Part shown: one piece after another, positions 6,991 to 31,660 of the stretch
Layout: the number at the start of each line of letters is the position of its first letter
Position numbering within the stretch: position 1 is the first letter of the stretch
DNA from: a virus
IMG/VR virus record: IMGVR_UViG_3300036760_000069
Coordinates: 23,118 to 87,117 of that record
Direction: 5' to 3' (one strand)
Length of the DNA stretch: 64,000 bases
Notes under the pieces: model-generated
Databases searched by the model: none
Told to the model about the DNA's origin: nothing
What the model saw: only the letters and a program-made list of their open reading frames with translations
Translations under genes and position numbers: made by a program

Positions 6991-6991
6991 C

Positions 6992-7042: not shown

Positions 7043-7087
7043 GCGCTCCTTCTGGCATTGCCGACAGACACGACGTTGCGGCGCGGC

Positions 7088-7402
7088 TTAGTTTCCGACA
7101 TACGCGAACACCTTAATTTCACGATGATGGTTCGTGACGATCACGCTTGGCCGCCGGTCAATGACGCGCCAGTGCGGCCCACGCAACACACAGCCCCACG
7201 CATTAGGATGAGCCGGTTTAAGCCCCCACTTGTCTGCTAGGACACGGAGGTCGTCGCAACTGACGGACCCGTAGGCCAGCGCTAGCTTCACCGCAACCGT
7301 CCGCATAGTGGCAACGAAGGGCGCGTTGTGAATCTCTACCAGGTCCAGGCCAAACGCCTTCTCCTTCGCGGCGAGCTCATCGTCGAGGGTGAGTTGGCTC
7401 AT
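7088..7402 (-). CDS. Conserved hypothetical phage protein, 104 aa
   Basis: The start ATG overlaps the preceding stop (ATGA). The sequence has an acidic N-terminus, a helical middle and the stretch [18 protein letters not shown], then a basic strand ([13 protein letters not shown]). I recall similar small phage proteins with a P-x-H-P-N-A-W-G core, apparently wing-helix-like, but cannot name the family. It lies just upstream of the C5 methyltransferase. Confidence 0.6.
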
Positions 7403-12429: not shown

Positions 12430-15400
12430 TTATGGAAAGACGCCCTCGCCAGCGGGGACGAGATCCGCCAGCAAGGGTTTAGCCGGCGTCAGCCAGTGGT
12501 GGGCTTTGAGTTTGGCGATGAAGGCGCGGCGGTCGCCCTCTGGGAGGACTTGGAGCATGGTGGTCGCGTAGTAATTCTCGGCCCGTTGCAGGATGCGCCG
12601 CTCCGCCGGCTCCAGTTGCTTGACCACGGCGTCCCGGTCATTCTTGGTCAGCCCCCAGAGGGGAGTCTTATCCCGGAGCGACTGGTGCATGGTCTTTGAG
12701 GTGCCGCCCAGCTCCTTGTACTCGGCGCGGTATTTCGCCTCGGCGGCCGTGTCTCCGTACTTGATCGAGAGCGCGATGTTCTGCAAGGCCTCGCCCTTGG
12801 GGGTGCGCCAGTAGAGCCCGCCGTCGTCCTTCCCAAGGCGTTGCTTGTACTTGGCCTCGATGTCCTGCCAGCTCTGGTAGGCCGCCTGGTCGGGGTTGAT
12901 CTTTCGGATCCCGAGGAAGCCCGTCAGGTTGTCCGATCCGAGGTAGGGCTTGGTCGGCTTGCCGGCGAGGGCGCGTGCCTCCTGCCCAACGGTCGCCTGC
13001 TGGGCCAGATAGTCCCCACGGCTCTGCATCGGGCGCGGGTTAAAGACATCCGGGTAGGTGTTGATACGGCCCACCAGATCCACCGTGTCCTTGACCAGCG
13101 GGGTGATCCCCTGCCAGACCTTGTTGATCGGGGCGTGCCACGTCTTCTGCCAGATCTCGCCCAGCGTCAGGCGCCCATGCAGGTAGTCCCCGACCAGCCC
13201 GGGGGCCTGGTCGAGGCCGAACCACGACAGGGCATCCCCCAGCGCACCCAGGCCGGTGAAGACCGGGATGCTCCCGTCCTCCCGTTTGCCACCCAGAATG
13301 ACATGGATGCGGTTGGCGATCGTGGGGTCCGTGTCCTGCAATTCCCGCTCCTCGTCGTCGAAGACGAAGTTATTCCAGACCTGGAGCATCGTCCACAGGG
13401 CGGCGGCCCGGATCAGGAAGGCGGCGACCTTCTTACCAGCGACACCGGCCCCCCTCGCCCCTGCCCCGTAGTCGGCGTCCTCGAAGGCGTTCCGCAAGAG
13501 ATGGGCGTACCGGCCCATATTGACCTCCTGCCAGCTCCAGAAGGGGTACCAGAACCGCCGCAGGGTCTGACCCGCCACAGAAACCCGGTCGTAGGCGCCC
13601 AGCAGCTCGTTGGAGAGCTTAAACGCCCGATCCCGGATGTCTGGCAAGGCCATGACGGTCTCGCGCCTGGAGGCCCCCCAGTTCGCCGGGCGGCCCTCTG
13701 TGTTACCCTGCATCTGCTCCAGATAGTCGAGGTAGGCAGCGTACCGGAGCATGGCCTCGCGGTAGTCCGTCCCTAACCTCGCGGCTTTCCAGTATTTATT
13801 GAACGCTTCGACGGGCAGAGCCAGCGCGCCACCCTTGCCTTCGCGGTCGATCGTGGCCCGGAAAGCCTTGAGTTCGTTGAGATCGCCCATCTCCTGCACC
13901 TGGAGGGTGGACCCGTAGCCCCCACGCTCTGCCCATTCCTTTGCCTCGCCGGTCAGGGGTTCATCCTTGAACATGACGGGCCACATCTCTTTGATGGCCT
14001 GCTGGACCTTCTTGAAAGCCCCCGGGTTGCCGACGAACAGGGCATCCGAGTCGCCGGACAGGTTCCGCAGGTTGTACCCGATCACCCGCCGCGGGGCGAT
14101 CAGCATGACCTGCTTCCAGTGGGATAGGGCCGCCCGGTTGAGATCGACAAACCAGTTCGGTGCCGGCTGGGCCAGCTCGTCGAGCGTGACCGCCACCTCG
14201 TCCTTGACGACATACTGCTCGCGGGGCCCGCCCTGGGCCATCATCGTCCGGAGCATCTCCTTGGTCAGGCCCACCTCCTCCAGCGCGTGTTCGTGCAGGG
14301 CCTTGGCGAGCTGGGCGGGGATCGTGTCCGCCATGTAGAAGATGTTGCCCTCGCGGGGCTGCCAGAGCGTGTACCCGTCCGGGACGAGATCCTGCCAGGT
14401 CTTGTACGCCTTCCCCAGCACGCCCTTGATGAACGCTTTGCGCTCGCCGATCGCCTTGAAGATCCCCAGCGCGTGCATCTGGCCGGGGGATTCCGGGTCG
14501 TTGGCGATGGCCTGAATCTGCTCCATCGTCAGCTTGTCGGCCGGTTGCAGATCGAGCGCGTCCCGGAGGCGGTGCTGGTGCATCCCCAACCGCTGGCGGA
14601 AGTGCTTCATCTGGACGTCAATGAGGCTCACCCCGCCGGGGGCCGCCAGCTCGGCGTCGATCCGCTTTTGAAGGGTCTGCTGGTTGGCGGCCCGCGCCTC
14701 CCCCTTGAGCCGTTGCCGGATGTTATGGGCCTCGTCGACGCCCTTGATGACCTTGGCGAGCTGGGTGTCGTAGGCCATCTGGGCCATGACCTCGAACTCG
14801 GCCTGGATGTAGTTCGCGTTGATGTCGAAGGTGGACCCCTCACGCTTCTTGAGGAACCCCCGACCGGTCGGCGTCCGGAGCCGCTTGCCAGACCCAGCAA
14901 TCAACCGTTGCTCACGGGCATAGTCCAGTACCTGATGCCGGAAGTAGTCCTCCTTGGTCAGCTTCTTGCTCACATCGAACCCGATGGCGTCCATGGCCTT
15001 CTTGTAGTCGGTCGTCAGGCCCTTCCAGAGTTCCTTTCGAGCGGCCCAGGCGGCTCGAATAGCGGGATCCTTCTGGACGCGATCATCAATCCGTTCCAGA
15101 TCGTGCGTGACCGAGTCCGGCGTGTACTCGAACGGGAGTTTGTTCCCCTTCGCCGCTTCGTGCGAGAGGTCGGTCAGCAACGCCTTCCATTCGAGGTCGT
15201 CGTATTGCATTGGCGAGAGGGGCTTGACGATCCGCGCCAGTTCGCGCTCGATCCGGTCTGCCTGGATGCCCTTCTGCTTCGAGAGCTTGAGGAGGTCGTT
15301 GCGGAGCCGGCTGAACTCGGCGGTATCCGGCAGATGCTCGAACTCGCGGGAGGTCAGGCGCCAGACCTGCTTGAGATGCTCTTTGGCCCACTCCTTCCAA

Positions 15401-18400
15401 GAGATCGGTTGCAGACCCTTCTTGGCCTTGCGAACGCGAGCATCAATAGTCGGATTGGCCGATCTGAACCAGCCAGGCTTTGGCCCCTCGTTCACCTCCT
15501 TCCCGAGCGGCACGCCGCCACGCTCATTGAAGCGGCGCATCTTGGAGATACCCTCGTTCGGCACCCAGGCGAGGATGGCCTTGACGCCCTTGTTGATCGC
15601 AGCGTACTGCCGGCGGCGGCCGTCGAGAGCTTCGCCGCCTTCGCCGTCAATGATGATCGGGTACTTCCCGGTCGGCGTCTCGGTGGTCAGCTCGAGTGTC
15701 TTAGGGTTGACCGCCTTCAGCGTCCACTTGTCGCCGTACCCGCTGATGCCGTGGAGGTCGTTATAGTCGAGCTTGCCGAAGGAGTCCTTCAGGGGGAGGG
15801 TGTCGAGGTAGTCCTCGAACTCGGCGCGGGTGAGCGTGTCGCCTTGGACAGGCTGGCCTCTCTTGGCGCGACGATCAGGTAGTGCGGCGCGGGATGATAC
15901 CGCTTGGGCCGGACGCTGACGGCGGCCTGGTAGAGGGATTTGGGATTGTGCCCCGCCGCCTTCGCCTCCTTCAGGATGTGCCGCACCGAGTCCGCGTCCA
16001 CGAAATCGTTCATGGCCGGTGCTAATCTTCTCAAAAACGTCATGTGATTCTTCACCCTGAAAGGGTTTGAGTGTGTCGACGTCAGCGGCAATTTGTGCAA
16101 GGAGAGTTTTGGCACCATTGGGGCCTCCCATGTCGCCCAGCATCACCTCAAGGGCGGCGGCGCTTTCCTTGATCGTGCGGGCTTGATTGTAACTGTTGAT
16201 GGCGGCGAACGCTTCATTGTGCGGGCGCACGGACTGATGACTGATTTCATGCACCGCCGTCGAGATCACCATGGCGGCAAACTCTTTCGCCAGATTCTCC
16301 GGCGGAATCCGTCCGTTCAGCACATGCCCATTGACATCCTGGTAGATGTCGTAGGGGTTGATGAGAATGTAGTTGCTCTGGTCGCCCTTGAAGATCGAAC
16401 TCCCGCCGATGTTCACGCCGAGGTACTTGCCGATTCCGATCCCCTGGAAGACGACCGATCCGTACTGATCTCCGTAGGGGATCAGCGCCTTCTGGAGTGG
16501 CGCAAAGGCGCGGGCCATCATCAGCGCGAGTTGCTTGACATGCGGTTGGTCCGCCATCTCCTTCAGGATCTCCGGCGGCACGGTCTGCTCGGTGTCCATG
16601 AACTGGAAGTCCGTGCCGGGGACATCCGGGGCCTCCTCGAACGCCTTGCGGAACGTCTCCCGCTCCACATCCAGCGCGTCGGTGACGAGGTCTTGGATCA
16701 GGTACTTGCGGATGACGTCCTTTACATCGCCGCGCAACTTCTCCCGGTTCGTCGTGAAGGGGTAGCCCGTCTGCCCCGGCGTGCGGCGCGACCGGATGTT
16801 GGCGAGGATGGTATGCGGGAGCTTGAGCTTGTGCCCTTTGCCGAAGCTGACGTTGATCGTGAACTGGTAGAGGCCGTTGTTCAGGATCTGCACCTTGCCT
16901 GTCTCCATCTCGGCGGTGCCTTCCGCTGCGGAGAAGTCCACCTCGCCGCCCTGGAACTCCAGCGTGCGTGTCCGGGCCACGCCCATCGCCTTCCAGTTCT
17001 TCTCGGGGTTGATCTCCAAGCCCCCGATCGAGGCCGAGAGCTTGAGCGGCATCTGGTGAAAGGCCGTGACGTTCTCCAGCCACTTGCGAATCGCCGGCGT
17101 ATCGAACTCCATCTTGTCCGGGTACTTGAGCCGGACACGGGTGCCTGGGGTCGCGTCGGGATCGGCCGCCTTGATCGTGGCGGTCAGGCCCTTCTCCTGG
17201 TTCAGCCAGTCGGCCCCGGACCCGCTTAGATGCGTCTCAACCATGCCACGGGCCGGATCGTAGGCGACCGTCTTGATGTCGATGTTGTCGGCCCCGGCGA
17301 AGATGACCACCTTGGCGACCCCGAACATGCCGGCGGCGTCTTCAGTCTTCTTGCTCCCGCCAAAGTCCACCAGCTCCTTGAACGCCACATCAGGGAGCAT
17401 CCCGGTTCCCGTGTCGTCAATCGTGATCTTGTGATCGTCCGGGAAGACCTCGATCCGCACCATGGCCCCCGCTTTGTCGGTCAGCCCGCGGGTGCCGTCC
17501 GTGGCGTTCTGCACCAGCTCCTTGACGATGACCTTGGAGGGATGCTCGGAGTACAGGCCCTCGCCCATGGCCTTGATGCGGTTCGGGTCGATGCCGGCGG
17601 CGGCCCCGTGCCCACCCTCCTCTTTGACGACCTTGATATAGGAAACATCAGCACGCCCATATTGTGTATCTAACACGACCATCGCTGGGAACGACTTCGC
17701 CCCCAGTAACTTCAGCGCGTCGAAGCGGTGGCCGCCTTCCAACACATACGGGCCTGCCTTACTCCCATCCTCGACGACGATCAGCGGTTCGATTTCACCA
17801 GACTCCTTGATCGTGTTCGCAAGAGCTTCGACCTTGTGCTTCTCTGTCCGGGAATAGAATGAAGGCTTTCCATCGTCTTGAAATGCGGAGATCGGCACCT
17901 CGCGTACACCGTCAAGTATTTCGTACTTCGTCAGGCTGGCCTTAATGGAGGACTGGTTGGACGCCTCGCCCACCACCCGGCGCCCATCAACCACATTACC
18001 GGCCCGCTTGAACTTTGTCTTGAACGCCTTCATGTGGCTGGTGATCTCGCCCTGCCCCATCTCGGAATCCACGATCTCGGCGACGGGGTGGTTCGCCACG
18101 ATCTTTTCAAAGGCCGAGGCCCCCTTCTCGCCCGTCGGGATGAAGATGCGCGTCTTGAACTGGATGATCTCGCGGAACGCCCCGGCGGCCTCCAGCTCCT
18201 TCCACGCCCGCTCGACCCCGTTGCCCACGATCTCGATGCGCGTCTCGCCGGCGACGGTCTTGCGCTCGAACCGCCACCCGTTGACCAGCGCGATCTTGCT
18301 CCGCTTCTTGAGGATGGTGTCCATGGCCTGCGCGGGCGTCAGCGTCGGCAAGTCCACCGAGGCCCCCAGCCGGCGGAGAACAGCCGACACATCGCCCTCC

Positions 18401-21400
18401 CGGACCACCCGCCCCAGATACCGCTTGCCGGTGTCGTCCTGGACGCGCATGACTCGGACATGGTCCTGCGGGAGCCTGTCCCATATCGGGAGCAAGGTGC
18501 CGGAAATCAGATGCAGGGGTTCCTCGCGGTAGGGTGGATGCGTGTCAATCGTCTTCTTCCAGAGGGCTTTGCCGGCGTCTGGATTGATCGCCGCGTAGTG
18601 CTTGCTCAGGCCGTCCTCGTCCACATAGTAGTACGTCTCGGCGACGGGGCTGATGAGGCGGAAGTGTTTGTTGACGCCTCCCGTTTTCGGGTCCGTGCGC
18701 GTTCCGGTATAGACCGAGGCGAAGACCTTCTCGGTCTTGTTGCTCTGGACGTACCCCTGAAAGCCCTCCTTCTTCTCGACCTCCTTGGTCTGGACGAAGT
18801 TCACATCATGCTTGGTGTCCATCGAGACCATCGACGTTGTGGCGCCGCTGATCGGATCGCGGTAGACCTGTTGTTCCTTGATCGTCTTCACGCTGCGAGC
18901 CTTGTACGTTTCGAGACCCACATCGAGTTGTCCGAGCGAGGCCGCGTGGTCGATCGCCTGCTCCATGCGCTCGCTGAAAGCATCGAACACGGCGTTTTGA
19001 TCGTGGATCTCCAAGGCCAGAATCCGATTAAGAAACTGCGGGACTTTCGGGATCTTGTCCTCGTTGATGGACCCATCATCGGCGACAAGGCCCGTCAGCC
19101 CCATCTTGCCCTCGATCATCTCCTTGAAGTCCACGGTCGGGACTTCCCCGCGATGGGCGTCCAACACCAGTGCCCGCACCGCGCCTTGCGCGTATTTGTT
19201 TTCAAGGTTGTCTTTGGCGTTGATGAGGCCTGAGCTGCCCGTCTTGCGCTCGCCCTTGGTCATGGCCCCAAGCTGATCCAACCGGCGGCCGATGGTCGAG
19301 ATAAACCGCTTGTGCCCTTTCAGGTTCGTCATCACCAGCACATAATGCGGGGCATTGGCCTCGTTCGTGCGGTGTGAACGGCCCAGCCCTTGAATGAACT
19401 TTTCCGCCCGCCAGCCAGGTTGCACGCCATAGTGCCAGCGTTGCCGCTGGTTCTTGATACGCCGATCCGAATGGAAGCTGCGCCCAGTGCCGCCGGCGTC
19501 TGAAAAGACAAGGATCGACTTCTTATCAGCAAGGTATTCGTCTACCTCATGGGCGGCGAGCGAGGGTGAACGAGACTGGATCACCGTCTTCTCGCGCCCC
19601 AGATTGTCTTTGAGGCGCACCACGCGGCGGCTCCGACCCGTGACTTCCGCCACGGCGTCCGGCCCAAAAGTGTTGATGATGAACTCCAGCGGGCCTTCGG
19701 GTACCTTCAGCGACCCGACCGAGAGAAGCATGTCCTGCTTGAGCTGGATGGCGTCCTGGTTCTGCACGGGGTTGCCATCATGGTCCAGCACGGGGCGAGA
19801 CCGGATGTTCCCTTGCTCGTCCTGGTACTGCTCGTACTGTTGCGTCGGAAAGGACTTCTCCAGAAACTGCATCAGGGCATCGCGTGGCGTGAGATCGAGA
19901 TTTTCCAGATCGCCGTCTTCTTGCTCGGCGTTTTGGATCTGCCGCTCCATGCCCGCCTCGTTGGTGTTGACGAGTTGAGCGATAATGGCCTTGCCATCCT
20001 TGATCTTCGCTTCCATATCGGCGATGACGGTGGGCATCTGCATGGCCGTCAGCACCTGATTGAAGAACCGGAGTTCCGTGCCCCAGAAATTGGAGAGCAA
20101 GGTGGACTTGGCGCCCGCGTTCTTGGCCTTCCCGCCCTCGGTGACGCCCGTGAGTTCGAGGGCCTGATTGATGTTTGCCAATACCACCTGCCATGCCCGC
20201 GCCAGTCCGTTGTAGATGTCTTCTTGTTCTGGCGTCAACACATGCTCAAGAGTGCTATATGTGACCTCTGAGAAGTCGAGCGAGCGAGCGATATAGACGC
20301 CCATGGCCTTCATGTCACGGGCGACCACTTCCATCGCACCCAAACCGCCTTCCGTGATCTTCGCCGAGAAATCATTCTGGTCAGGGAAGGCCGTACCGGG
20401 CCCCCACAGACCGAGCCGTTCAGCATACCCCAGCGTGTCTACCGAGTTCGCGCCGGTCGCCGAGGCATACACAATGCGAGCCTTCGGCACCTGCTTGCGG
20501 AGGTCAAGGGCCGCAAGAGCCTGGATGGAGGCTTGCTGGTGGATGCCACGCGCCCCCATCGACTGCGTGGTCTTTTGCATGTTATGGGCTTCGTCGAACA
20601 CGATCACGCCATCGAAGTCTTTGCCGAGCCACGCTAGGATCTGATTGACCCGCGATTGTTTGGGCTGGTTCGTTTTCTTGTCTGTAATGGGAATGACCTT
20701 GCCGGTCTTATCCGTCATTAAGTTGGAGCGGATCGTGGCATAGGTGGTGAACATAATGCCCTTGGGTTGGTCGATCGGTTCGCCGAGTTTGGTCTTGCCG
20801 AGTTCAAAAACTTGGCCCTTGTCGCCGCCAATATCCACCCAGTCGCGCTTGGCGTCGGCTATGAGCCTAGAAGACTCCGAGACCCAGATGGCTTTCTCGC
20901 GCCCGTTGCGGAAGTTATCCAGAATGACGGCGGAGATCTGCCGGCCCTTCCCGACCCCCGTGCCATCGCCCAAGAAGAAGCCCTTGCGCGTCCCGTCTGA
21001 CAGAAATAACTCATGGGCCTGTCCTGCGTACACGGGCGTCTCGAGCTGGGCCAGCGAGAGGGCGCCGGAATCAATCAGATCCTGCGGCAGGTTGGGCGTG
21101 TAGGTCGGATCGGGCGGGAGCGTGTCCGCCATGGCCGCCGACTCTACCAGTTTGCCAGGGTGCGGTTTGGCACCAGGAATCCGCACCTTGGGTGGTTGGT
21201 ACTCGTCGTAGACGGCGTCGGTGAGTTCTTTGGTCGTGCTGGGGAACTTGGATTCAGGTTCGCTGGAAGCGACGACCGTTATCCCGGACTGAACGGGTAT
21301 ATGGGCGGGTACGTTCCCTTCATCCGCGGGTCGTCCCGCAGGCGCAGGTCGAGGGCCTCCAGTACCTTCACCGCCGCCCGCCTTGGGCTCATGGCCTTGG

Positions 21401-24400
21401 ATAGGTCGCTCTCCTCCAGCAACGGGGAGTCCGGGCTCTCTGGGCTGTTGAGGAACCACTCCAGCGCCCTCTTTCCGTCCGGGTACGCGAGGAGGCCGTC
21501 CAGTTTCTGTCGCAGGATGTCGCTGTCCCCCCCCGGCGGTGTGGTCAACCGGCCGTGGTCGAGTCCCCACATCGCCAGTTGGAACAGGTACGGCAGATCC
21601 GGGTCCGGTTTGGCCCCCGCCACCTTCAGCCACCGCTTGGCCTCCACGTTGAGCGGGTGGTCGTTGTTCGTCTGGTCGGGTCGCTTGTCCTTCAACGCTG
21701 GGGCGGTCATCGCGCACCTCCTTGAGGAGATTGAGGGCTTCATAGGGGTTCTCGGCCTTCCCTGTTACCACCTCTACTGAAGGAGAGGGGGCCACTTTAT
21801 CGAAAATCAAGATGCGGTTGTCAAAATCAGTGCCGTATTTCTTGTACCCCTTGCCGGACATGACCACGCTGGCACGAAGCTGGTACTTCTTGGCGAGGGC
21901 GTCGATGGCGCGGGAGACCCCCTCGGACTGCCCCATGAACCCCTCGCCGATCAGGGCGACGAGTCGCCCATTCGGGGCCAGGAGCTTCAGGGCCTGGTCG
22001 ATGTGTTTGCTGATGGCGTTGGTACTCTTGCGCTCGCCCGTGATCCGGCCGGCCGTCGAGGAAAACGGCGGGTTCATCACGATCACCGTGGGCGTGACTT
22101 TGAGGATGTTGGCAATCTGTTCGGCGTTCTCCGTCGTCACCTTGTTGAAGACGATGGTATTGAGGAGTCCGGCCCGCCGCGGCGAAAGTTCGTTGACATC
22201 CACATCGGCCCCGAAGTTCTTGGCGAAGATCGCCAGCCCACCCAAGCCGGCACTTGGCTCCAGCATGACATCCTTGGGGGTGATGTGCGCCGCCCAGTTC
22301 ATCACGAACGCCAGATCCGGGGGGGTCGAGAACTGTTGGAACTCGACCATCTCCGGCGTGCGTCTCGTCCCCTGCGACGGGATCTTGTCCATGATCTGCT
22401 CACGCAGGTAGTTGAGCATCTCCCGCGCTTTTATGAGGCTATAGGTGGTGGGTCTGTAGACGCCATCAGGGCCCAGCATCTCGCCGATGAAGCGGTTGAT
22501 CCCCAGCTCGAGGGCATCATTCAGATCCTTGACGGTGTAGGTGCCGTCCGCCTGTGTGCCCCCAAAGTCCTCATTGGCTCGCGTGACCAGTTGATCCATG
22601 CTGAACGACAGTACACCAGGCGCCGTGTCCTCTTTCAGGCGTTCCTCGACAAAGTAGGCGATGTTCATACTCGCGCCGACGATCTTCTGCTCCGTGGTCG
22701 CTGGAGCTTCAACCGCCGGGATCGTGGGCTCGTCGGGTAAGACCGCGCCGCGCCCGCCCTTGGTGAGCAGGTCCGCCTTCTCCTGATCGGTCATGGCGGG
22801 CTTCGGAGCGGGCAGGCTGGGGGTCGTCGGGCTGGGCGTCTTCGGTTCGCTGGCCTTGACCTGTGAATCGTAGAAGGCATCCAACGCAGACTTCTCGCTC
22901 CCGATCGGACGATCAGGCGTCCCCGGCATGAAGCCCCATTTTGAGCCATCTGGGCGGTAGATGTTCCATTCCTTGCCGGTGCGCCGTGCAGTCCACCCTG
23001 CGGCGAGAAATTCATCCTTGGTCATGTCGGCAGGGTTGGCCGTTGGGACGGTCTTTGTCTCTGGCACCAGCCCAGGCGTCTGAGCTTCGGCCTTCTGCGG
23101 ATACTCGTCAGGGTGGTGCGCGAGCTTGTACTTCGCGTCCTCGATCGCCCGCTCCCATCGTGCCCAGTCGTCCGGGTAGCCGTGCGTTTCAAAGTCGTCG
23201 AGGCCGGCTTGCGCGACTTCGATGATTCGGTATGGATCGCCAGCATTCTCGGCCTTTGTCAGGGCGCGCTTGTGCTTGCGGTAGAGATCCTGCCGGAAGT
23301 CGCCCGTGGGGGCCTTGTCCTCGTCCTTCCAGCCGCCGGGAGGGGGCTTGTCGGCGACGGTCGGACGCTCAGGAGAAGGCAGGCCAGGAGCGGCATGGTG
23401 TTCGGCCTTGGGTGCTTCCGGTTTTGGCTCCTCTGGTGTTTTCTTGGCGACAGGTCGATAGACTTGGATCCCCTCATCCCCTCGTTGAATAGCTTCGTAG
23501 AGACGGTTATTGCCATCAATCACCTCGCCCGCATGATCCAGCACAATCGGGCCATTCGTCATTGACCCTCGCGGAACAAACTCGGCGCCATCCCAGAGCA
23601 TCTCGTTACCTTTACGAAGTGATTCGATCGGCACTCTTGCCTGTTCCCACTGTGAATCGGTGAGATGGGCGTCCTCGTTCTTGTTTGTTTTACGTCCCAG
23701 CTCCGTGTACCCGATAGCGTTCTGAGCGGACTCTGGGAGTTCCTTAAAAGCCAGCGTCTTTATCGATTTGATTTCCTGTTTGGGGATTGGGAATCCTGGT
23801 GCGGCAGGGCGTTCGGCTTTGACTTCTGGTTTTGGCTCCTCTTTTGAGGGCGCAGAACCGGAACCTGCCGGCATCGTCAGCGCATCCTGCACCTGCTTCT
23901 TCTGCTCATCGCTCAGGCCGTTGTACGGGCGCCCGAACAAACCACGTGCTGCCTCGTTCGGCGTGGCATACTTCTTGGGCGAGAGGGCCTCATTCGCCGT
24001 CTGCCCCTTCCCGACCGTGAAGTTCGCCTCGGCGGCGGCGGCGGCCTCCTCCATCGACGGGTAGGTGCCAAGCGTGTCCTTACCGCGAATGTCCCACGCC
24101 TCAAACTGCCCGTCGTCGCGCTCAATGACCATGGCCTTCGGCTTCTCAGGATTGCCGCCGGCCCAGATGTAGGTCGATTCGCCAGGTACGGCCCCATGTT
24201 CCCACCCCGCCGGCAAGCCTGTCGTTGGTTCATTCGCCGGAGCCACACCTTGCTCAGTTTGGGGGGCTGGCAGGCCAGGAACAGGGGTAGGTTGAATGTC
24301 GGAGACCCTATCCGCACGCTTCTTCAGGAACGGTTCGCGTTGAACTGGAGCCAATTCTGGCGGAATGGCGGCTACTTCGGCCTTGGCCCGCGCATTGACC

Positions 24401-26277
24401 TGATCGCCCACCCTGGGTGGACGGGCTTCGGGGCCAGCGGCAGGGGGTGGGGCTTCGATGCCGGGGACGGTTCCCGTAATCTGCTTCACTGAACCAGAAT
24501 CTGTCTCAGCGCGCCGCCCACTTTCTGCGGGGTTAGGCGGTTCTTGTCCTTCAGGTTGTCCTGGCGGTTGGACCGTCCGCCCGCCCTTCTGGGCCGCTTT
24601 GAGGGCGGTATTGTACGCCTCGGTCAGGTCCATGAAGGCCTTTGTCTTGGCGGCCTGCGCCTTTGGGTCTGGGTCTACAAGGTCCGGGCGCATGGACTTA
24701 ACCGCGTTTCGGTACGCGGCCTTCACATCGGCATCCGTCGCCGTGTCAGGGTCCAGCCCAAAGAACTCGAACGCCTTGGCATTGTATTGCTTGGTGGGTT
24801 CGCCGGCCTGGCTCTCCCATCTGGCCCGCACCCCCTCCATGGCGGCCGTCGGGATGCCGAACATCGCCGCCATCGAGACCACATCCTTCCAGTCGTCCCC
24901 AAAGGCAGCTCCGTAGGCGGCCCCCGTGGCGGTCTGGGCGGCAACATGGACGGCCTTTCCGAGTGGGCGTGTGACTTGTCCCACTACGCCTGGTACCGTA
25001 AAGAGCGCGGCGGTTTTAGCCGCTTCGGCGGGAGACTCCTCGGCACCCTTGGTGAATCCCACGATCCCAGGAGCGACGGTTGCGGCGGTCTTTCCGACCA
25101 TCCCGAGAGCGGTCAGTCCTTTGGTGACGGCGGACAACGGGATGCCATATTCAGCCGCGAATCCAGCCAGACCCGAGGCAACCCGATCTGCAATGTCGAG
25201 AGCATCCTGTGTGCTGGTGGTGGCTCCACTCTGCCGATTCGTCTTAGCAGGCAGGTACTTTTCGAGACCATCGGCATAGGAGTTCAAAATCTGGCTGAAC
25301 TCCGGGATGCGCGGATCCTCTGCCATCCGCCGTCGAGTGGCTTCAGGAAGACGGGTCAGGATGTCAGGGAGTGGACCTTCACCGGCTTCCTGTCGGCTCA
25401 TGGTGATGGCGTCGAGTTGTGCGCTGAGTGACCGCAGGAGATTCGCCCCACCCGAATTAACGGCCTGGGCAACTGAGAATGTGAAATTCTCAAGGCTTTG
25501 TGGAGAGGCTGGCCCTTGGCGTTGCGGGGTTGGCAGTCCTGGTACTTGGACGGTCGGACGCAGAACCTCCGGTTGCTCAATCGCCTGTCCGGTAACACGG
25601 GTGGTCGGGATTGCGTTTTTGTCAATCGTGGGCGCGGGTTCTTCAACCGGGTTGCCGGTGATCGTGTCGATCATCTGCCCGCTCTGGGTGACAAAGCGGT
25701 TGGGATGCTCCGGGAGCTTGAACCGCGACGGCCAATGCCCGCTGGCGTCCGGGGTGGCGCCGGCGGTGTAGGCTCCACGGTAGTCGTAGAAGTGTTGCGG
25801 GTCGTCCGGGTTGGGGTTCAGGCCCTGCGTGGCGGCGTGCCCCCCGTACCACTCCTGGAAGGCGGGTTCGTTGAAGGCGGGCTTGGCGGCAACGGGCGCG
25901 GGCGTCGGAGCCGGGCGTGGCTGCGGCACCAGATCCCCGTAGAAGGAGCCGACCTCCTTGGCGGTCTCAATCGGCGAGGTGATGACGTCGACCGCACTCT
26001 TGCCGAGGCTGGCGGCGCCGGTCTTGATGTCCTGCCAGAACCCTTGCGGCTGGGGCGTGGTCTCCAGCCCCTGCACCTGTTGCAGCTCGGCACGCCGTTT
26101 CTGGATATAGGCGTCGAAATCTGGTTTGGGGGCGGTCTGGAGGTGCTTGAGCCACCGCTCATCGCCGGGCAGAGACCCGACCTTCAGCTCGGCGATCGCC
26201 GCCTCGCGGGTCGAGGTGGGGACGAAGTCCCGGAGCCAGGTCGCCGTCTCGTCGTCTTCGAGGAGCGGCCGGGCCAC
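12430..26277 (-). CDS. Giant polyvalent protein (4615 aa): J-like, ParB-like, methyltransferase, SNO-type helicase, GHKL ATPase, metalloprotease motif
   Basis: The start is a GTG three bases after the upstream stop. Approximate layout: Pro-rich N-terminus (1-330); hydrophobic helices (355-490); J-like domain (500-560, FEFFGLDPDTATDADVKAAY, with RPD replacing HPD); ParB-like segment (830-943, VIDGNNRLYEA); Rossmann methyltransferase (1305-1480, LEPSAGLGG and NPPF); Gly/Pro linker overlapped by a nested gene (1520-1666); SF2 helicase of strawberry-notch type (Walker A GDGTGVGKGR about 1770, DEAH about 1893, QGLGRSHRTNE about 2290); second ParB-like segment (2809-2870); GHKL ATPase (2895-3130, KELVQNATDG, DDTGTGM); HEISH motif about 3341; third ParB-like segment about 3549 (ALDGRRRQY); then a long helical C-terminal region (3600-4615) with hydrophobic helices near 4280. 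This is the organisation of phage large polyvalent (DarB-like) proteins, thought to be packaged and injected to counter host defence. The injection role is inferred. Confidence 0.85.
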   Translation of the reverse strand: MARPLLEDDETATWLRDFVPTSTREAAIAELKVGSLPGDERWLKHLQTAPKPDFDAYIQKRRAELQQVQGLETTPQPQGFWQDIKTGAASLGKSAVDVITSPIETAKEVGSFYGDLVPQPRPAPTPAPVAAKPAFNEPAFQEWYGGHAATQGLNPNPDDPQHFYDYRGAYTAGATPDASGHWPSRFKLPEHPNRFVTQSGQMIDTITGNPVEEPAPTIDKNAIPTTRVTGQAIEQPEVLRPTVQVPGLPTPQRQGPASPQSLENFTFSVAQAVNSGGANLLRSLSAQLDAITMSRQEAGEGPLPDILTRLPEATRRRMAEDPRIPEFSQILNSYADGLEKYLPAKTNRQSGATTSTQDALDIADRVASGLAGFAAEYGIPLSAVTKGLTALGMVGKTAATVAPGIVGFTKGAEESPAEAAKTAALFTVPGVVGQVTRPLGKAVHVAAQTATGAAYGAAFGDDWKDVVSMAAMFGIPTAAMEGVRARWESQAGEPTKQYNAKAFEFFGLDPDTATDADVKAAYRNAVKSMRPDLVDPDPKAQAAKTKAFMDLTEAYNTALKAAQKGGRTVQPPGQPEGQEPPNPAESGRRAETDSGSVKQITGTVPGIEAPPPAAGPEARPPRVGDQVNARAKAEVAAIPPELAPVQREPFLKKRADRVSDIQPTPVPGLPAPQTEQGVAPANEPTTGLPAGWEHGAVPGESTYIWAGGNPEKPKAMVIERDDGQFEAWDIRGKDTLGTYPSMEEAAAAAEANFTVGKGQTANEALSPKKYATPNEAARGLFGRPYNGLSDEQKKQVQDALTMPAGSGSAPSKEEPKPEVKAERPAAPGFPIPKQEIKSIKTLAFKELPESAQNAIGYTELGRKTNKNEDAHLTDSQWEQARVPIESLRKGNEMLWDGAEFVPRGSMTNGPIVLDHAGEVIDGNNRLYEAIQRGDEGIQVYRPVAKKTPEEPKPEAPKAEHHAAPGLPSPERPTVADKPPPGGWKDEDKAPTGDFRQDLYRKHKRALTKAENAGDPYRIIEVAQAGLDDFETHGYPDDWARWERAIEDAKYKLAHHPDEYPQKAEAQTPGLVPETKTVPTANPADMTKDEFLAAGWTARRTGKEWNIYRPDGSKWGFMPGTPDRPIGSEKSALDAFYDSQVKASEPKTPSPTTPSLPAPKPAMTDQEKADLLTKGGRGAVLPDEPTIPAVEAPATTEQKIVGASMNIAYFVEERLKEDTAPGVLSFSMDQLVTRANEDFGGTQADGTYTVKDLNDALELGINRFIGEMLGPDGVYRPTTYSLIKAREMLNYLREQIMDKIPSQGTRRTPEMVEFQQFSTPPDLAFVMNWAAHITPKDVMLEPSAGLGGLAIFAKNFGADVDVNELSPRRAGLLNTIVFNKVTTENAEQIANILKVTPTVIVMNPPFSSTAGRITGERKSTNAISKHIDQALKLLAPNGRLVALIGEGFMGQSEGVSRAIDALAKKYQLRASVVMSGKGYKKYGTDFDNRILIFDKVAPSPSVEVVTGKAENPYEALNLLKEVRDDRPSVEGQATRPDEQRPPAQRGGQAVAEGGGGQTGPGSAVPVPTGDVGTRPRPVDHTAGGGQRHPATETGRPPRVPGRKEGAGVVPQQPREPGLPVAGGERPIQGHEPKAGGGEGTGGPRPAPAGRPADEGNVPAHIPVQSGITVVASSEPESKFPSTTKELTDAVYDEYQPPKVRIPGAKPHPGKLVESAAMADTLPPDPTYTPNLPQDLIDSGALSLAQLETPVYAGQAHELFLSDGTRKGFFLGDGTGVGKGRQISAVILDNFRNGREKAIWVSESSRLIADAKRDWVDIGGDKGQVFELGKTKLGEPIDQPKGIMFTTYATIRSNLMTDKTGKVIPITDKKTNQPKQSRVNQILAWLGKDFDGVIVFDEAHNMQKTTQSMGARGIHQQASIQALAALDLRKQVPKARIVYASATGANSVDTLGYAERLGLWGPGTAFPDQNDFSAKITEGGLGAMEVVARDMKAMGVYIARSLDFSEVTYSTLEHVLTPEQEDIYNGLARAWQVVLANINQALELTGVTEGGKAKNAGAKSTLLSNFWGTELRFFNQVLTAMQMPTVIADMEAKIKDGKAIIAQLVNTNEAGMERQIQNAEQEDGDLENLDLTPRDALMQFLEKSFPTQQYEQYQDEQGNIRSRPVLDHDGNPVQNQDAIQLKQDMLLSVGSLKVPEGPLEFIINTFGPDAVAEVTGRSRRVVRLKDNLGREKTVIQSRSPSLAAHEVDEYLADKKSILVFSDAGGTGRSFHSDRRIKNQRQRWHYGVQPGWRAEKFIQGLGRSHRTNEANAPHYVLVMTNLKGHKRFISTIGRRLDQLGAMTKGERKTGSSGLINAKDNLENKYAQGAVRALVLDAHRGEVPTVDFKEMIEGKMGLTGLVADDGSINEDKIPKVPQFLNRILALEIHDQNAVFDAFSERMEQAIDHAASLGQLDVGLETYKARSVKTIKEQQVYRDPISGATTSMVSMDTKHDVNFVQTKEVEKKEGFQGYVQSNKTEKVFASVYTGTRTDPKTGGVNKHFRLISPVAETYYYVDEDGLSKHYAAINPDAGKALWKKTIDTHPPYREEPLHLISGTLLPIWDRLPQDHVRVMRVQDDTGKRYLGRVVREGDVSAVLRRLGASVDLPTLTPAQAMDTILKKRSKIALVNGWRFERKTVAGETRIEIVGNGVERAWKELEAAGAFREIIQFKTRIFIPTGEKGASAFEKIVANHPVAEIVDSEMGQGEITSHMKAFKTKFKRAGNVVDGRRVVGEASNQSSIKASLTKYEILDGVREVPISAFQDDGKPSFYSRTEKHKVEALANTIKESGEIEPLIVVEDGSKAGPYVLEGGHRFDALKLLGAKSFPAMVVLDTQYGRADVSYIKVVKEEGGHGAAAGIDPNRIKAMGEGLYSEHPSKVIVKELVQNATDGTRGLTDKAGAMVRIEVFPDDHKITIDDTGTGMLPDVAFKELVDFGGSKKTEDAAGMFGVAKVVIFAGADNIDIKTVAYDPARGMVETHLSGSGADWLNQEKGLTATIKAADPDATPGTRVRLKYPDKMEFDTPAIRKWLENVTAFHQMPLKLSASIGGLEINPEKNWKAMGVARTRTLEFQGGEVDFSAAEGTAEMETGKVQILNNGLYQFTINVSFGKGHKLKLPHTILANIRSRRTPGQTGYPFTTNREKLRGDVKDVIRKYLIQDLVTDALDVERETFRKAFEEAPDVPGTDFQFMDTEQTVPPEILKEMADQPHVKQLALMMARAFAPLQKALIPYGDQYGSVVFQGIGIGKYLGVNIGGSSIFKGDQSNYILINPYDIYQDVNGHVLNGRIPPENLAKEFAAMVISTAVHEISHQSVRPHNEAFAAINSYNQARTIKESAAALEVMLGDMGGPNGAKTLLAQIAADVDTLKPFQGEESHDVFEKISTGHERFRGRGLGAAHPEGGEGGGAQSQIPLPGRRQRPAQAVSSRAALPDRRAKRGQPVQGDTLTRAEFEDYLDTLPLKDSFGKLDYNDLHGISGYGDKWTLKAVNPKTLELTTETPTGKYPIIIDGEGGEALDGRRRQYAAINKGVKAILAWVPNEGISKMRRFNERGGVPLGKEVNEGPKPGWFRSANPTIDARVRKAKKGLQPISWKEWAKEHLKQVWRLTSREFEHLPDTAEFSRLRNDLLKLSKQKGIQADRIERELARIVKPLSPMQYDDLEWKALLTDLSHEAAKGNKLPFEYTPDSVTHDLERIDDRVQKDPAIRAAWAARKELWKGLTTDYKKAMDAIGFDVSKKLTKEDYFRHQVLDYAREQRLIAGSGKRLRTPTGRGFLKKREGSTFDINANYIQAEFEVMAQMAYDTQLAKVIKGVDEAHNIRQRLKGEARAANQQTLQKRIDAELAAPGGVSLIDVQMKHFRQRLGMHQHRLRDALDLQPADKLTMEQIQAIANDPESPGQMHALGIFKAIGERKAFIKGVLGKAYKTWQDLVPDGYTLWQPREGNIFYMADTIPAQLAKALHEHALEEVGLTKEMLRTMMAQGGPREQYVVKDEVAVTLDELAQPAPNWFVDLNRAALSHWKQVMLIAPRRVIGYNLRNLSGDSDALFVGNPGAFKKVQQAIKEMWPVMFKDEPLTGEAKEWAERGGYGSTLQVQEMGDLNELKAFRATIDREGKGGALALPVEAFNKYWKAARLGTDYREAMLRYAAYLDYLEQMQGNTEGRPANWGASRRETVMALPDIRDRAFKLSNELLGAYDRVSVAGQTLRRFWYPFWSWQEVNMGRYAHLLRNAFEDADYGAGARGAGVAGKKVAAFLIRAAALWTMLQVWNNFVFDDEERELQDTDPTIANRIHVILGGKREDGSIPVFTGLGALGDALSWFGLDQAPGLVGDYLHGRLTLGEIWQKTWHAPINKVWQGITPLVKDTVDLVGRINTYPDVFNPRPMQSRGDYLAQQATVGQEARALAGKPTKPYLGSDNLTGFLGIRKINPDQAAYQSWQDIEAKYKQRLGKDDGGLYWRTPKGEALQNIALSIKYGDTAAEAKYRAEYKELGGTSKTMHQSLRDKTPLWGLTKNDRDAVVKQLEPAERRILQRAENYYATTMLQVLPEGDRRAFIAKLKAHHWLTPAKPLLADLVPAGEGVFP
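15789..16043 (-). other. Out-of-frame protein-like segment inside the giant gene
   Basis: Between about 16020 and 15865 the giant reading frame becomes Arg/Gly-rich (residues about 3420-3470), while the alternative frame reads MNDFVDADSVRHILKEAKAA and then RPKRYHPAPHYLIV, which looks like real protein. The alternative frame can start at ATG 16043 or 16013 and stops at 15789, but neither start has a strong ribosome-binding site. It may be a second nested frame or two compensating indels. Confidence 0.4.
21279..21710 (-). CDS. Nested gene inside the giant gene, 143 aa, other frame
   Basis: An ATG at 21710 with a near-perfect AAGGAGG six bases upstream opens a 144-codon frame in a different reading frame from the polyvalent gene. 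Its product looks like a real soluble protein (NVEAKRWLKVAGAKPDPDLP, YLFQLAMWGLDHG, KRALEWFLNSPESPDSPLL), whereas the overlapping part of the giant protein is Gly/Pro/Arg-rich linker. I know no homologous family. It would be translated from inside the same mRNA. Confidence 0.65.
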   Translation of the reverse strand: MTAPALKDKRPDQTNNDHPLNVEAKRWLKVAGAKPDPDLPYLFQLAMWGLDHGRLTTPPGGDSDILRQKLDGLLAYPDGKRALEWFLNSPESPDSPLLEESDLSKAMSPRRAAVKVLEALDLRLRDDPRMKGTYPPIYPFSPG

Positions 26278-26280: not shown

Positions 26281-27480
26281 CTACCCTTGACGGCTACCGA
26301 GAATCGCCGGACTCACCAAGTCGGACTGGCGGCGCGCACGGGGAATACCAGACCCCCCGCCAGGAGCCGCTCGGAATCCACGCGGCTTGTGCGTGAAGTT
26401 CTGCTCAAGGACAGCGCGTTCGCCGCGGGTCGTCCCCTTGTCCAGCCAATGCGTCAAGCCAGCATGCAGATCCTTGTCGGTGATCTGCCCGTTCTCGTCC
26501 ATGGCGAGCCCCAGCACGTTCTGGCGGAAGTCCGCCAGTTGCTTTTCGTAATACTGTTGCGTGCCCTGCATCTCCAAGAGCTTCGCCTCGATCCCTGGCA
26601 CCTTCTCTGGATCGGCGTTCTTGGCAATGTCGAGTTGCTGTTTGAGGTGCCGCGCCTGATAGACATGCTGGGCAAGGCTCGACTCCAACCCCTTATAGCC
26701 CGCCATCTCCTCCTTGAGCTGGAGCATGAAGTTGTCCCGCGCCTTGGCTTGCTGGCCCATCTGCCGGTACTTGCTGATCGTGGCAGGGTCAGCTTTGTCC
26801 GGGAACTCCTCGGCCTGTTGGAGCGGTCCACCGCCAGCCAGGGTGGCCTCGGCGCCGCCCGTCGGTCCCTGCATCGCCAGCGTCTGCGGTTTCGCCGCCA
26901 GCACATCCGCTCGCGGGGGCGGCTCCATCGCCTGCGCCGCCTCCACGCCAGGGTTGTTGGGGTTCTCGTCCGCCGGAATCACTTCCTCGCCTTGATGAAG
27001 CATGGCCGGGCCGGTGCGCGGCACCAACGGCGTGCCCTGCGCGTAGGCAGGCATGTTTGACATGCCACCCATTTGCTCCGACGCCGTATTGTCAGGAGTC
27101 AGAGGGGCACCATCTCGATTCAACGTAAACTGAAACGGATCTTGGGGGGGCAACTGTGCGGGGCCCTCATCAACCTTTTCTGTCACAGGAGCGTCCGGCA
27201 CGCCGCCCATGGACGTTGCATCCGGTGCGCTGGTCGCCGGTTTAGGTCGGTACGTCTTTGACGGAGCTTGCGGATCTCGTCCGCCCGCCTCGAAATCAAA
27301 CTTGTCGCGGGCCAGCTTGTCCGCACTTTCACCCCGCGCTTTCAAGTCGTCAATGTGTTTCTGGTAGGCCTGGTTCCGCTTGTGCGCGAGGTAGAACTGC
27401 ATGATCTGTGGAACGGCGTGCGCGATCCCGCCGGCGATGGCATCCGCACGCGGCGGCTTTTTAAGCTGATACGGGGGCAT
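26281..27480 (-). CDS. Putative internal/tape-measure-like virion protein, 399 aa
   Basis: It starts at an ATG with GAGGAGG upstream and ends three bases before the giant gene. The centre has GTPLVPRTGPAMLHQGEEVI followed by PADENP, a motif common at the C-termini of phage tape-measure proteins. The C-terminal half is a coiled coil (about residues 235-330, KARDNFMLQLKEEMAGYKG...). The N-terminus is basic and helical, followed by disordered Pro/Gly-rich sequence. It is probably a virion or ejection protein partnered with the polyvalent protein; the exact role is unknown. Confidence 0.6.
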   Translation of the reverse strand: MPPYQLKKPPRADAIAGGIAHAVPQIMQFYLAHKRNQAYQKHIDDLKARGESADKLARDKFDFEAGGRDPQAPSKTYRPKPATSAPDATSMGGVPDAPVTEKVDEGPAQLPPQDPFQFTLNRDGAPLTPDNTASEQMGGMSNMPAYAQGTPLVPRTGPAMLHQGEEVIPADENPNNPGVEAAQAMEPPPRADVLAAKPQTLAMQGPTGGAEATLAGGGPLQQAEEFPDKADPATISKYRQMGQQAKARDNFMLQLKEEMAGYKGLESSLAQHVYQARHLKQQLDIAKNADPEKVPGIEAKLLEMQGTQQYYEKQLADFRQNVLGLAMDENGQITDKDLHAGLTHWLDKGTTRGERAVLEQNFTHKPRGFRAAPGGGSGIPRARRQSDLVSPAILGSRQG

Positions 27481-27772: not shown

Positions 27773-28190
27773 TGGCCGCCCTCGATATTTGATGTCTATT
27801 CCGGTCGCACATTCGACATCGACGCCTCACTCCTTGATGGATAGCCGTATTGGCTTTGTCGTAAACGTGACCTTTCGGACACGCTTTTTTCGCTGCATTC
27901 ATAGCCGCAATCGTATCGCCTCGGAGGACGTTTACTTTTCCTGTCACAACCTCTAGATGATCTGGATTGACACAGCGGATGTTCCGACATAGATGGTCGA
28001 TCTGTAGGCCGTCAGGTATCGGCCCGTGCGCCAGTTCGTAAGCGAAGCGATGCGCGTATACCTGTCGCGTGCCGTTCCAAAATACGCCGTACCGGTTGCC
28101 ATTGGCAGCGCCTGTCCAGACATCGCAGTCCCTGATACTTTGTACGAACAAGGCAAAACGCTCTGCTGCTGGTTTATGTGGTCTGCTCAC
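27765..28190 (-). CDS. HNH homing-type endonuclease, paralogue of 9785-10219
   Basis: The 141-residue protein shares [33 protein letters not shown] and CPKGHVYDKANT with the other HNH gene, with a distal CRMC knuckle. It is AT-richer than its neighbours and sits between the PAPS-reductase-like gene and the YkgJ-like gene, overlapping both ends slightly, as expected of an inserted homing gene. Confidence 0.85.
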   Translation of the reverse strand: MSRPHKPAAERFALFVQSIRDCDVWTGAANGNRYGVFWNGTRQVYAHRFAYELAHGPIPDGLQIDHLCRNIRCVNPDHLEVVTGKVNVLRGDTIAAMNAAKKACPKGHVYDKANTAIHQGVRRRCRMCDRNRHQISRAANA

Positions 28191-29019
28191 GCATTCCTTC
28201 TCCGACTGGGGTACAGTATTTCAGCGTCTTAAACAGAGCTGCACGGGTCGCTTCGTGCTCCTCAAAGGAGCGGGCAATGTTCGGAATCAGCGCCCCGTCG
28301 CGTTTGGGGCAGGATACTTGCTCACCACGATGGTTGGAATTTAAACAATTGTAGCATGTGACCATGCGATCAGGATTGACACTTTCGATATTATCTACAT
28401 ACCTGCGCCGATCGAATGGAAGATCGTAATGAGCGATATAGGCCCACACATCATCATCAGTCCAATCACTTAGCGGGAAGGCGACCATCGTGGTCGCGTA
28501 CTGCACGCAGGGCATCATCGGCCCCGACCGATCCGCCAAATGAAACGGGTCGCCTTCCTTCGATCCCATGATCGTCAAATCCCATGGGTAGTCGGTGGCG
28601 AGGGCCTTGGGGCGGAGCAGGAAATCGTCAATGGCGCAGAAGTACCGCTCGCCGTCCGACGGCTTGTACGCCCGGATGCCGTCCACCATGATGATGTTGT
28701 CGCTCAGGCCACACCGATAGAAGTCCAGAATCTCAAAGTAGTCCCCTTGCTGGTATTCGATGGTCGCCGACGGCATCAGGTCGAACACCTCCAGATCCCA
28801 CTCGCGGGCCACTTGGTAGGCATGTTCAAACTGCGCCTGAAACTTGGCGTGGCGAAAGAACAGCACCGGCACCTTCTTTTTGATCCGCAAGGCGAGATGC
28901 AGGGCGACAATGGAGTCCTTGCCGAAACTACAACAGACCACAGGCCGCGCCGACGTCGACAGATGGGCCGCCATCCGTGCGAGGGTCCGAGATTCCATCT
29001 CTTTCATCATCGTGTCCAT
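28174..29019 (-). CDS. PAPS reductase / ATP-PP-loop family protein
   Basis: The PP-loop SFGKDS (31-36) and the DDDVWAYIAHYDLPF helix region mark the phosphoadenosine phosphosulphate reductase family. Cysteines in VTCYNCLNSNHRGEQVSC near the C-terminus could hold an Fe-S cluster, as in phage DndC-like relatives. Phage versions have been linked to sulphur assimilation, tRNA thiolation or DNA phosphorothioation, but the substrate here is unknown. It lies within a virion-protein module, two bases after gene 29022-29909. Confidence 0.8.
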   Translation of the reverse strand: MDTMMKEMESRTLARMAAHLSTSARPVVCCSFGKDSIVALHLALRIKKKVPVLFFRHAKFQAQFEHAYQVAREWDLEVFDLMPSATIEYQQGDYFEILDFYRCGLSDNIIMVDGIRAYKPSDGERYFCAIDDFLLRPKALATDYPWDLTIMGSKEGDPFHLADRSGPMMPCVQYATTMVAFPLSDWTDDDVWAYIAHYDLPFDRRRYVDNIESVNPDRMVTCYNCLNSNHRGEQVSCPKRDGALIPNIARSFEEHEATRAALFKTLKYCTPVGEGMREQTT

Positions 29020-29021: not shown

Positions 29022-29909
29022 TTATATCGCAATAATGCCCGCGCCGATGATTGCCCCGCCCGCGCCGATCCCGGCCCCCATCAACCCACTACTCCGACCA
29101 GACGCGGCCGAACTCAGCCCCGCATTGGTGTTATACATACCCATATTGAATTGGTCCTGCTGCCAGCGATCCTGTTGCCGCTGTTGAATCGCATTGCCCG
29201 TGATGTTGGCCGCGTTGGCGGTCAAAGCCGCCCCGCCTGTGTACTGTGCCGAGGTCACATTCGCGTTCCGTGCCAGCCGGTTCGTGAGTTCCATCTGGCG
29301 GTTGTTGACAATCGCTTCGGCGCCGGTGATCCGGCCCTCTCGGACGGCGTCCTCGGTACTGGTACGGGCCCGCCTGAACTCCGCCATGGCCCGCGATCCA
29401 CCCGTCGAGTTCTCCCATCCTGGCCCGAACTGTTCGGTCAGCCGGCTGATGAGTTGCTGTTCGCCGCGATCCCAGTCATTCGTGACGGCATCACCCACCG
29501 GGAGTCGGCCTTCCAGCCCCGCGATGGAGCGCGCATTCGCCAGCCGCCCGACCTTGAGAGTGTCTTGCACATCCTGCGGGAGTTCGGCTTCAGGAATGTC
29601 CTCAAAGGTGATGGCGCCGGTTGTGGGGTCCACCACTTTACGAATCCCTTGGTTCGCATAGTAACGTCCAGCGAACGCTTCCTGTTCTTTGCCCTGCGTA
29701 GCGGCTAGCTCATTCGACCGGCGCGCCTCGATCAGTTGCTCATGCTGAAGATCCAGCTCGTCCTGCGTCTTGGGGGTTGGTTGCGGTGTCGGTGGCGGAT
29801 CATCCCCTCCCCCGGCGCCGCACAGGATCGGCCACCAGCGGCCCGTGGACACCTCGACAAACCCGTCCAATCCGCGCCGGGTGGTCTGAATGAACGTAAT
29901 GAGCGGCAT
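29022..29909 (-). CDS. Putative internal virion protein, 295 aa
   Basis: The first 50 residues include a Pro-rich linker. The middle is helical and Gln/Arg/Ala-rich (EFRRARTSTEDAVREGRITG), and the C-terminus ends in a Gly-rich hydrophobic segment (GLMGAGIGAGGAIIGAGIIA). This resembles podoviral core/ejection proteins of the gp7/gp14 type. The start overlaps the upstream stop (TGATG). Context, in a second adaptor/hub module ending in the polyvalent protein, supports a role in DNA ejection. Confidence 0.6.
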   Translation of the reverse strand: MPLITFIQTTRRGLDGFVEVSTGRWWPILCGAGGGDDPPPTPQPTPKTQDELDLQHEQLIEARRSNELAATQGKEQEAFAGRYYANQGIRKVVDPTTGAITFEDIPEAELPQDVQDTLKVGRLANARSIAGLEGRLPVGDAVTNDWDRGEQQLISRLTEQFGPGWENSTGGSRAMAEFRRARTSTEDAVREGRITGAEAIVNNRQMELTNRLARNANVTSAQYTGGAALTANAANITGNAIQQRQQDRWQQDQFNMGMYNTNAGLSSAASGRSSGLMGAGIGAGGAIIGAGIIAI

Positions 29910-31123: not shown

Positions 31124-31660
31124 ATGGTAAAAATCTGTACAAAATGTAAACGAAAACTCACACTGAAGTCGTTTAATAAATCCTCCGGCAAACGCTTTGG
31201 CCGGCATAATCTTTGTAGAGTCTGTCATCGTATTGATTCTCAAAGGCGGTATATTCCACGCCCACGAATTAAGAAAACGCACTGCAAGCAGTGCGCTGTT
31301 CGCCTTACAAACGAGAACTGGGCTCCGTCTTGCAGGGATAGCCGTAGCTATTCGTGTAGAACGTGCCATAACGCGATGTGCAGGCAACGCAACCTTCGCA
31401 TGAGACTTGAGGTGTTGAGCGCTTACGGAGCTATATGCGTCTGTTGTGGAGAGACTCGGCAACAGTTCCTTGGGTTTGATCATATCAATGGGGGTGGTAC
31501 TCAGCACCGCAGAGAAGTTGGAGATGGCGACCAATTCTATAGGTGGTTGAGGCGTGAAGATTACCCTCTTGGCATTGTTCAGGTGATGTGCCACAACTGT
31601 AACATGGCAAAAGGCTTCTATGGCCAGTGCCCGCACGTTCTTGAACAGAAAACACATTAA
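31124..31660 (+). CDS. HNH endonuclease, inverted relative to all other genes
   Basis: This 178-residue, AT-rich gene is the only convincing plus-strand gene. It has N-terminal zinc pairs (CTKCKR, CRVCH, CKQC, CRTC) and a C-terminal HNH core (ICVCCGETRQQFLGFDHING, VMCHNCNMAKG). It ends convergently with the hub gene, sharing the TTAA at 31657-31660. Its own strong promoter and orientation mark it as a recently acquired, self-expressed homing-type nuclease. Confidence 0.85.
   Translation: MVKICTKCKRKLTLKSFNKSSGKRFGRHNLCRVCHRIDSQRRYIPRPRIKKTHCKQCAVRLTNENWAPSCRDSRSYSCRTCHNAMCRQRNLRMRLEVLSAYGAICVCCGETRQQFLGFDHINGGGTQHRREVGDGDQFYRWLRREDYPLGIVQVMCHNCNMAKGFYGQCPHVLEQKTH

Follow-up and report, generated by a model that had tools for sequence, protein, structure and literature searches.

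A 4615-residue polyvalent phage protein with a Strawberry-notch methyltransferase-helicase core, a GHKL ATPase and seemingly exchangeable cargo

The window considered here, a stretch of 64,000 nucleotides corresponding to positions 23118-87117 of a virus record of 87,117 bp, contains on its minus strand one uninterrupted frame of 4615 codons (12430-26277, 13.8 kb) with a GTG start at 26277, residue i of its product being at window position 26277-3(i-1). Comparison of this product with its viral relatives shows a fixed methyltransferase-helicase core, a C-terminal module of about 1000 aa in some members, and two variable slots for seemingly exchangeable cargo. In the window protein the second of these slots holds a block, absent from the nearest relative, with a ParB domain, a GHKL ATPase and a zincin motif. 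A preliminary description of the same DNA had the extent of the single frame exactly right, leaving the strand unstated, and missed what is the main regularity, namely the constancy of the core as cargo is swapped and the presence of the C-terminal module in part of the family.

The giant gene and its setting

Genes for virion components precede the giant gene on the same strand. They encode the large terminase (59911-61392; phrog_2, 2.8e-26), the portal or head-tail connector (57283-59415; phrog_332, 4.9e-156), the major head protein (54814-55833; phrog_212, 9.4e-86), a relative of T7-like tail tubular protein B (44086-46983; phrog_376, 2.3e-193), an internal virion protein of 1290 aa (37823-41695; phrog_6651, 3.6e-32) and the tail fibre (36267-37781; phrog_1640, 1.3e-23), and these matches bear out the earlier placing of the giant gene last in a virion-protein module. 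Closer to it on the minus strand are a PAPS-reductase-like gene (28174-29019; phrog_424, 2.6e-14), which has a counterpart close to the giant gene in phage JC1 (PMC9144972), and, immediately upstream, a gene for a protein of 399 aa that matches no family (26281-27480), 3 nt past the end of which lies the giant gene's start.

The open reading frames of 60 complete, deduplicated viral relatives that bear the core are also unbroken, so that a frame interrupted in related phages, an outcome that the preliminary description had envisaged as counting against it, is not what is seen. In a composition scan, GC3 dips at residues 1501-1690 and 3401-3500, with a relative for comparison only at the first dip. 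A frameshift at residues 1501-1690, suspected from the dip, was rejected since a linker is also present at the same place in relatives.

Some features of the surrounding DNA merit separate mention. The contig has two different head modules (each with portal, head protein and terminase), one to the left of the window (L002:10187-19846) and one at 54814-61392, and L002:2-622 is 72% identical to the tail fibre gene. Tandem phages or a chimeric assembly may account for a contig with two head modules, and the giant frame is unaffected by either. Direct repeats occur 59 kb apart (4662-4854 and 63808-64000, 96%; 4416-4502 and 63460-63546, 86%), with the first copy of each pair inside a DNA methyltransferase gene; two such genes, one of N6/N4 type and one of C5 type, adjoin at 4007-7122. 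The gene at 7808-9160 matches a Gp3-like, recombination directionality factor-like family (4.4e-43), and an imperfect repeat of about 100 nt occurs three times in tandem at 47648-47946, in and around an ORF of 108 aa.

The methyltransferase-helicase core

The DNA adenine methyltransferase, residues 1291-1505 (21763-22407), has the motifs FSTPP, EPSAGLGG and NPPF, the last being that on which the preliminary description had relied, and is matched over residues 1289-1498 by phrog_9133 (2.6e-18) and phrog_6263 (1.9e-10). The conserved region ahead of it, residues 1180-1290 (22408-22740; 94 matches among the fetched ORFs, duplicates included), occupies the position of LPD36 in DarB-like proteins, with the GXGU motif of LPD36 not clearly visible there. 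A low-complexity Gly/Pro/Arg linker (residues 1506-1699; 21181-21762), recognized by composition and poorly conserved in relatives, separates the methyltransferase from a helicase whose N-half (20209-21165; GDGTGVGKG, DEAH) matches Pfam AAA_34 at 1e-111 and whose C-half (18907-19689; QGLGRSHR) matches Helicase_C_4 at 9.3e-81. The helicase earlier discerned from GTGVGKGR, DEAH and QxxGRSHR is thereby confirmed and, judged by its profile matches, is of the Strawberry-notch SF2 family, a point that had been missed, and not of the SNF2 type of DarB. The fusion of an adenine methyltransferase having NPP(F/Y) and a TP motif to an SF2 helicase is that of polyvalent proteins. It is followed by a further conserved region (residues 2460-2740; 18058-18900), which 14 of the 16 loci from the first round contain and before which the remaining two are cut off. 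Methyltransferase, helicase and post-helicase region are common to every first-round relative of sufficient length. The catalytic motifs are invariant in an alignment of 14 relatives, and among the 60 complete viral relatives NPP[FYWH] is universal (60/60) and a Walker A pattern is present in 52.

Domain searches, which the preliminary description had itself proposed as a check, give profile support for the methyltransferase, helicase and GHKL families. With these profiles in one chain, and several biochemically unlike domains joined as is characteristic of polyvalent proteins, its assignment to the DarB-like polyvalent proteins of phages stands.

Relatives and modular anatomy

Sixteen core-bearing viral loci, with identities of 43-56%, came from the first scan, and a profile scan added more. 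The 60 complete deduplicated viral relatives range from 2335 to 6032 aa, which makes the size of the window protein ordinary, and they carry other sets of modules, so that the earlier view of it as unusually complete does not hold. This set, which leaves out ten re-fetched loci and L009 and in which two near-copy pairs of identical length remain (L108/L134 and L132/L133), was drawn by similarity to the present core, and proportions describe that sample only; several counts of relatives are to be read as 'at least', and contigs may be fragments. In the 60, from 428 to 3124 aa precede the methyltransferase and from 3 to 2383 aa follow the core. Cargo among relatives includes InPase, LPD3, ART-PolyVal, PBECR3, MutS_I, MuF_C, DarA_C and LPD38 from the published polyvalent set, and also a Zeta-toxin domain.

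The most instructive comparison is with L004, the sister of the window protein in a quick tree (SH-aLRT 99). In L004 about 40 aa separate the end of the core match (residue 2792) from the start of the C-terminal match (2833), whereas in the window protein the corresponding positions are 2736 and 3604 (868 aa apart), and the ParB domain, the GHKL ATPase and the zincin stretch are all within that interval. The two proteins are a clean sister pair whose difference is one block of about 860 aa, either gained in the window protein or lost in L004.

The N-terminal slot differs as well. That of L004 has an InPase domain; in the window protein, the variable region of residues 1-490 (24808-26277) is similar to L021 at residues 136-217 (1e-15), with no relative found for the remainder in a search of viral_contigs and the fetched ORFs. 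It is followed by a J-like stretch, residues 503-557 (24607-24771; PF00226, E 6e-4), in which RPD at 530 stands where DnaJ co-chaperones have HPD. The RPD had been reported before and is indeed there; the domain itself is borderline, at 20.3 bits in a whole-protein scan and 28.6 bits in a genome scan with a cut-off of 27.8. A J-domain ORF in the contig of L004, the nearest relative, encodes a separate protein of 217 aa with HPD intact (L186:8958-9611, record G001).

The block between core and C-terminal module

Of the three ParB-like segments originally proposed, one is sound. This ParB/Srx domain, residues 2784-2880 (17638-17928; ParB_N 5.9e-5, TIGR00180 3.9e-6), is recovered by Pfam, NCBIfam and PDB sequence searches, and L147 has a ParB domain at the same place (1.5e-22). 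The other two, at residues ~881-945 (23443-23637; a DGNNR motif only) and 3480-3575 (15553-15840; a weak match to residues 909-942 only), have no match to ParB_N or ddrB-ParB and only a DGxxR motif in common.

The GHKL ATPase, residues 2898-3190 (16708-17586), was rightly recognized in the preliminary description. It has KELVQNATD, DDTGTGM, GGSKK..GMFGV and, at 3176, TNREKL; HATPase families match it (HATPase_c_3 below its cut-off), and its N-box plus G1 pattern occurs in 0.05% of shuffles of this protein. The best named profile is NF010683, an Hsp90-family model (5.5e-8), and there is a further match to an ATP-binding domain of sacsin type (4e-4). With local profiles from eight phage rIIA proteins (640-887 aa) and from cellular HtpG, HMMER scores are 22.2 bits for rIIA and 8.1 bits, over the N domain only, for HtpG, without the N, middle and C-terminal domain set of the latter; by hhalign the two are about equal, both at ~95%. 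The distance from N-box to RE, taken from those rIIA and HtpG proteins in which both motifs matched, is 258 here, 219-245 in three rIIA proteins and 295-312 in HtpG proteins, and tblastn at a loose limit also reached rIIA (E 0.07-0.2). The sequence comparisons, then, lean towards rIIA over HtpG by HMMER, yet not firmly. In addition, rIIA is a free-standing gene, and the GHKL domain here is inside a giant and is the sole HATPase_c_3 match in the contig.

Neither a motif search through every fetched ORF of at least 500 aa nor a Pfam scan of the records of 49 relatives brought up another giant with GHKL, and the GHKL-zincin block had no close relatives in viral_contigs, genome_contigs or 399 genomes of one phylum (these last searched without a positive control); as the search patterns derive from one sequence, only close relatives were within reach. 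The absence of block relatives is also why its fold could not be modelled: AF2 of residues 2758-3590 without an alignment gave a pLDDT of 34. A GHKL match in record G042 does not represent another virion giant: it is a defence protein of TmtA type whose gene has DrmD-like and type IIG genes as neighbours. The locus (L185:3-12780, on a contig classed as viral) has, adjacent to one another, genes for a DrmD/BrxH-like helicase, a type IIG restriction-methylase and this TmtA-like GHKL protein.

Further along the block, a zincin-like stretch (16048-16560) is recognized by motif only, HEISHQSVRPHNEAF at residue 3343. The HEISH of the preliminary description is present, and Pfam MPTase-PolyVal (PF18818), which might have lent support at the level of a domain, does not match. 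HExxH alone is found in 9% of shuffles and the extended HEISHQSVRPHNEAF in 0 of 2000, the pattern for the latter having been written after seeing the sequence.

The C-terminal helical module

Residues 3604-4615 (12433-15468) are shared with a subset of phage giants that have different cargo. The module is in 22 listed ORFs, or 19 without re-fetched loci, four of these being without the core, and among the 60 complete viral relatives 12 (about a fifth) match it; others end in LPD38 (12 of 50 records) or in unassigned C-termini. An AF2 model from 20 sequences is all helical (pLDDT 74, pTM 0.70). Fold search of BFVD with it gave 53 matches at E<=1e-3 (TM-scores ~0.2-0.5), many of them named large polyvalent protein-associated domain proteins, and the predicted resemblance to LPD38-named proteins is at the fold level only: there is no Pfam LPD38 match, and a comparison at profile level with five C-termini of LPD38 type gave a negative result. 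In the PDB there was no fold match for the C-terminus and no sequence match for the core or C-terminal alignments. In L021 this C-terminus is joined to another methyltransferase-helicase dyad, and relatives of the window genes at 33244-34152, 31657-33240 and 29022-29909 occur in the L021 contig as well as in that of L004. That L021 shares C-terminus and upstream-gene relatives despite its different dyad suggests exchange of cargo above a retained C-terminus.

Possible function

Giants of this known kind are probably injected to protect viral DNA. For the window protein the favored explanation, somewhat likelier to be right than wrong, is that it is packaged in the virion and, as a DarB-like protein with an rIIA-like accessory, protects the DNA on entry, its delivery and activity being inferred. 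Its packaging is suggested by analogy, since the analogues JC1 gp69 and P1 DarB are in virions and the context is one of late virion genes. The chain would be built into the virion via its C-terminal module, or by a signal at the N-terminus like that of P1 DarB, and would enter the cell together with the DNA. The translocase could then carry the methyltransferase along the incoming genome, giving protection in cis from type I-like restriction, with the GHKL block as an rIIA-like ATPase that would counter some additional exclusion or defence response of the host. Individual modules may be released through cleavage of the chain by the zincin motif.

The last step shades into another explanation, compatible with the favored one and possible if doubtful, in which the product is a polyprotein that the zincin-like stretch cuts so that modules act separately. 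HExxH is about tenfold enriched in the viral giants (37 occurrences in the same 60 ORFs, compared with 3.5 in shuffles), processing of P1 DdrB takes place ahead of its packaging, and polyvalent proteins often contain MPTase domains; however, only a motif is seen here, MPTase-PolyVal being without a match, and the N4 virion polymerase is packaged without being cut even though it contains a domain of this kind (PMC5512222). The position of the gene after those for the internal virion protein and tail, together with the occurrence of the all-helical C-terminal module without this core in L021-L024, would suit a protein that is mainly an internal virion or DNA-ejection component, its C-terminal module a conduit or membrane anchor, its helicase pulling DNA in and methylation secondary. 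That is unlikely given that the most conserved part is the methyltransferase-helicase core with its motifs intact and that the C-terminal module is in only a fifth of relatives.

Less likely again is that the GHKL and J-like domains are a chaperone-like unit which, by analogy with Hsp90 and sacsin, folds or unfolds the giant during packaging or after delivery and has no anti-defence role. Their presence in one chain and the Hsp90-family and sacsin-type matches described above are what would be expected of such a unit, but the replacement of HPD by RPD in a J domain makes stimulation of Hsp70 unlikely, the HtpG profile is well short of that for rIIA, and similar-sized relatives do without both GHKL and J-like domains.

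A further reading, which can be offered only tentatively, is that the virion delivers an rIIA-like GHKL ATPase joined to a Strawberry-notch methyltransferase-helicase, in which case rIIA-type counter-defence would arrive with the DNA instead of being made after entry. Were the block both delivered and rIIA-like in action, the long-unclear function of rIIA would become testable from the virion side. More generally, the picture of these phage giants is one of a constant core to which interchangeable cargo is attached.

Comparison with known systems

Iyer et al. 2017 (PMC5512222) described phage polyvalent proteins with a methylase-helicase dyad, a few having Strawberry-notch helicases. The window protein is like these in its order of adenine methyltransferase (NPPF and an upstream TP motif) and then SF2 helicase, in being a giant chain and in its place among late genes, and is unlike them in having no Pfam match to their MPTase, ddrB-ParB and LPD38 models. 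GHKL and DnaJ are absent from the main text of that survey, which points to the GHKL ATPase as a cargo type missing from that account.

JC1 gp69, a DarB-like protein of 4515 aa from a Bcep22-like phage, is encoded last in its virion module and is represented by 51 unique peptides in purified virions (PMC9144972). It and Bcep22 gp75 resemble the window protein in length (~4500 aa), in position at the end of the virion module and in having a PAPS reductase gene a few genes upstream; in contrast, their helicase is annotated as of HepA (SNF2) type, and no extended sequence match to JC1/Bcep22-type phages was found in the phage collection. P1 DarB, whose first 30 residues direct it to the head (PMC9024508), is likewise a methyltransferase-helicase antirestriction protein carried in the head, but is of 250 kDa with an SNF2-type helicase and other modules.

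Phage rIIA is a GHKL ATPase whose GGSxK, FG and xRExL motifs are spaced much as they are here; it is a separate protein, usually encoded beside rIIB, whereas the GHKL domain here is within a virion-module giant. At the other extreme of size are stand-alone Strawberry-notch methyltransferase-helicases, mostly of Alphaproteobacteria, which make up most of the relatives from the genome collection, 69 of them forming one clade in a quick tree (support 100). These have the same core, at ~36-46% identity, in proteins of 1415-1556 aa without the extra modules.
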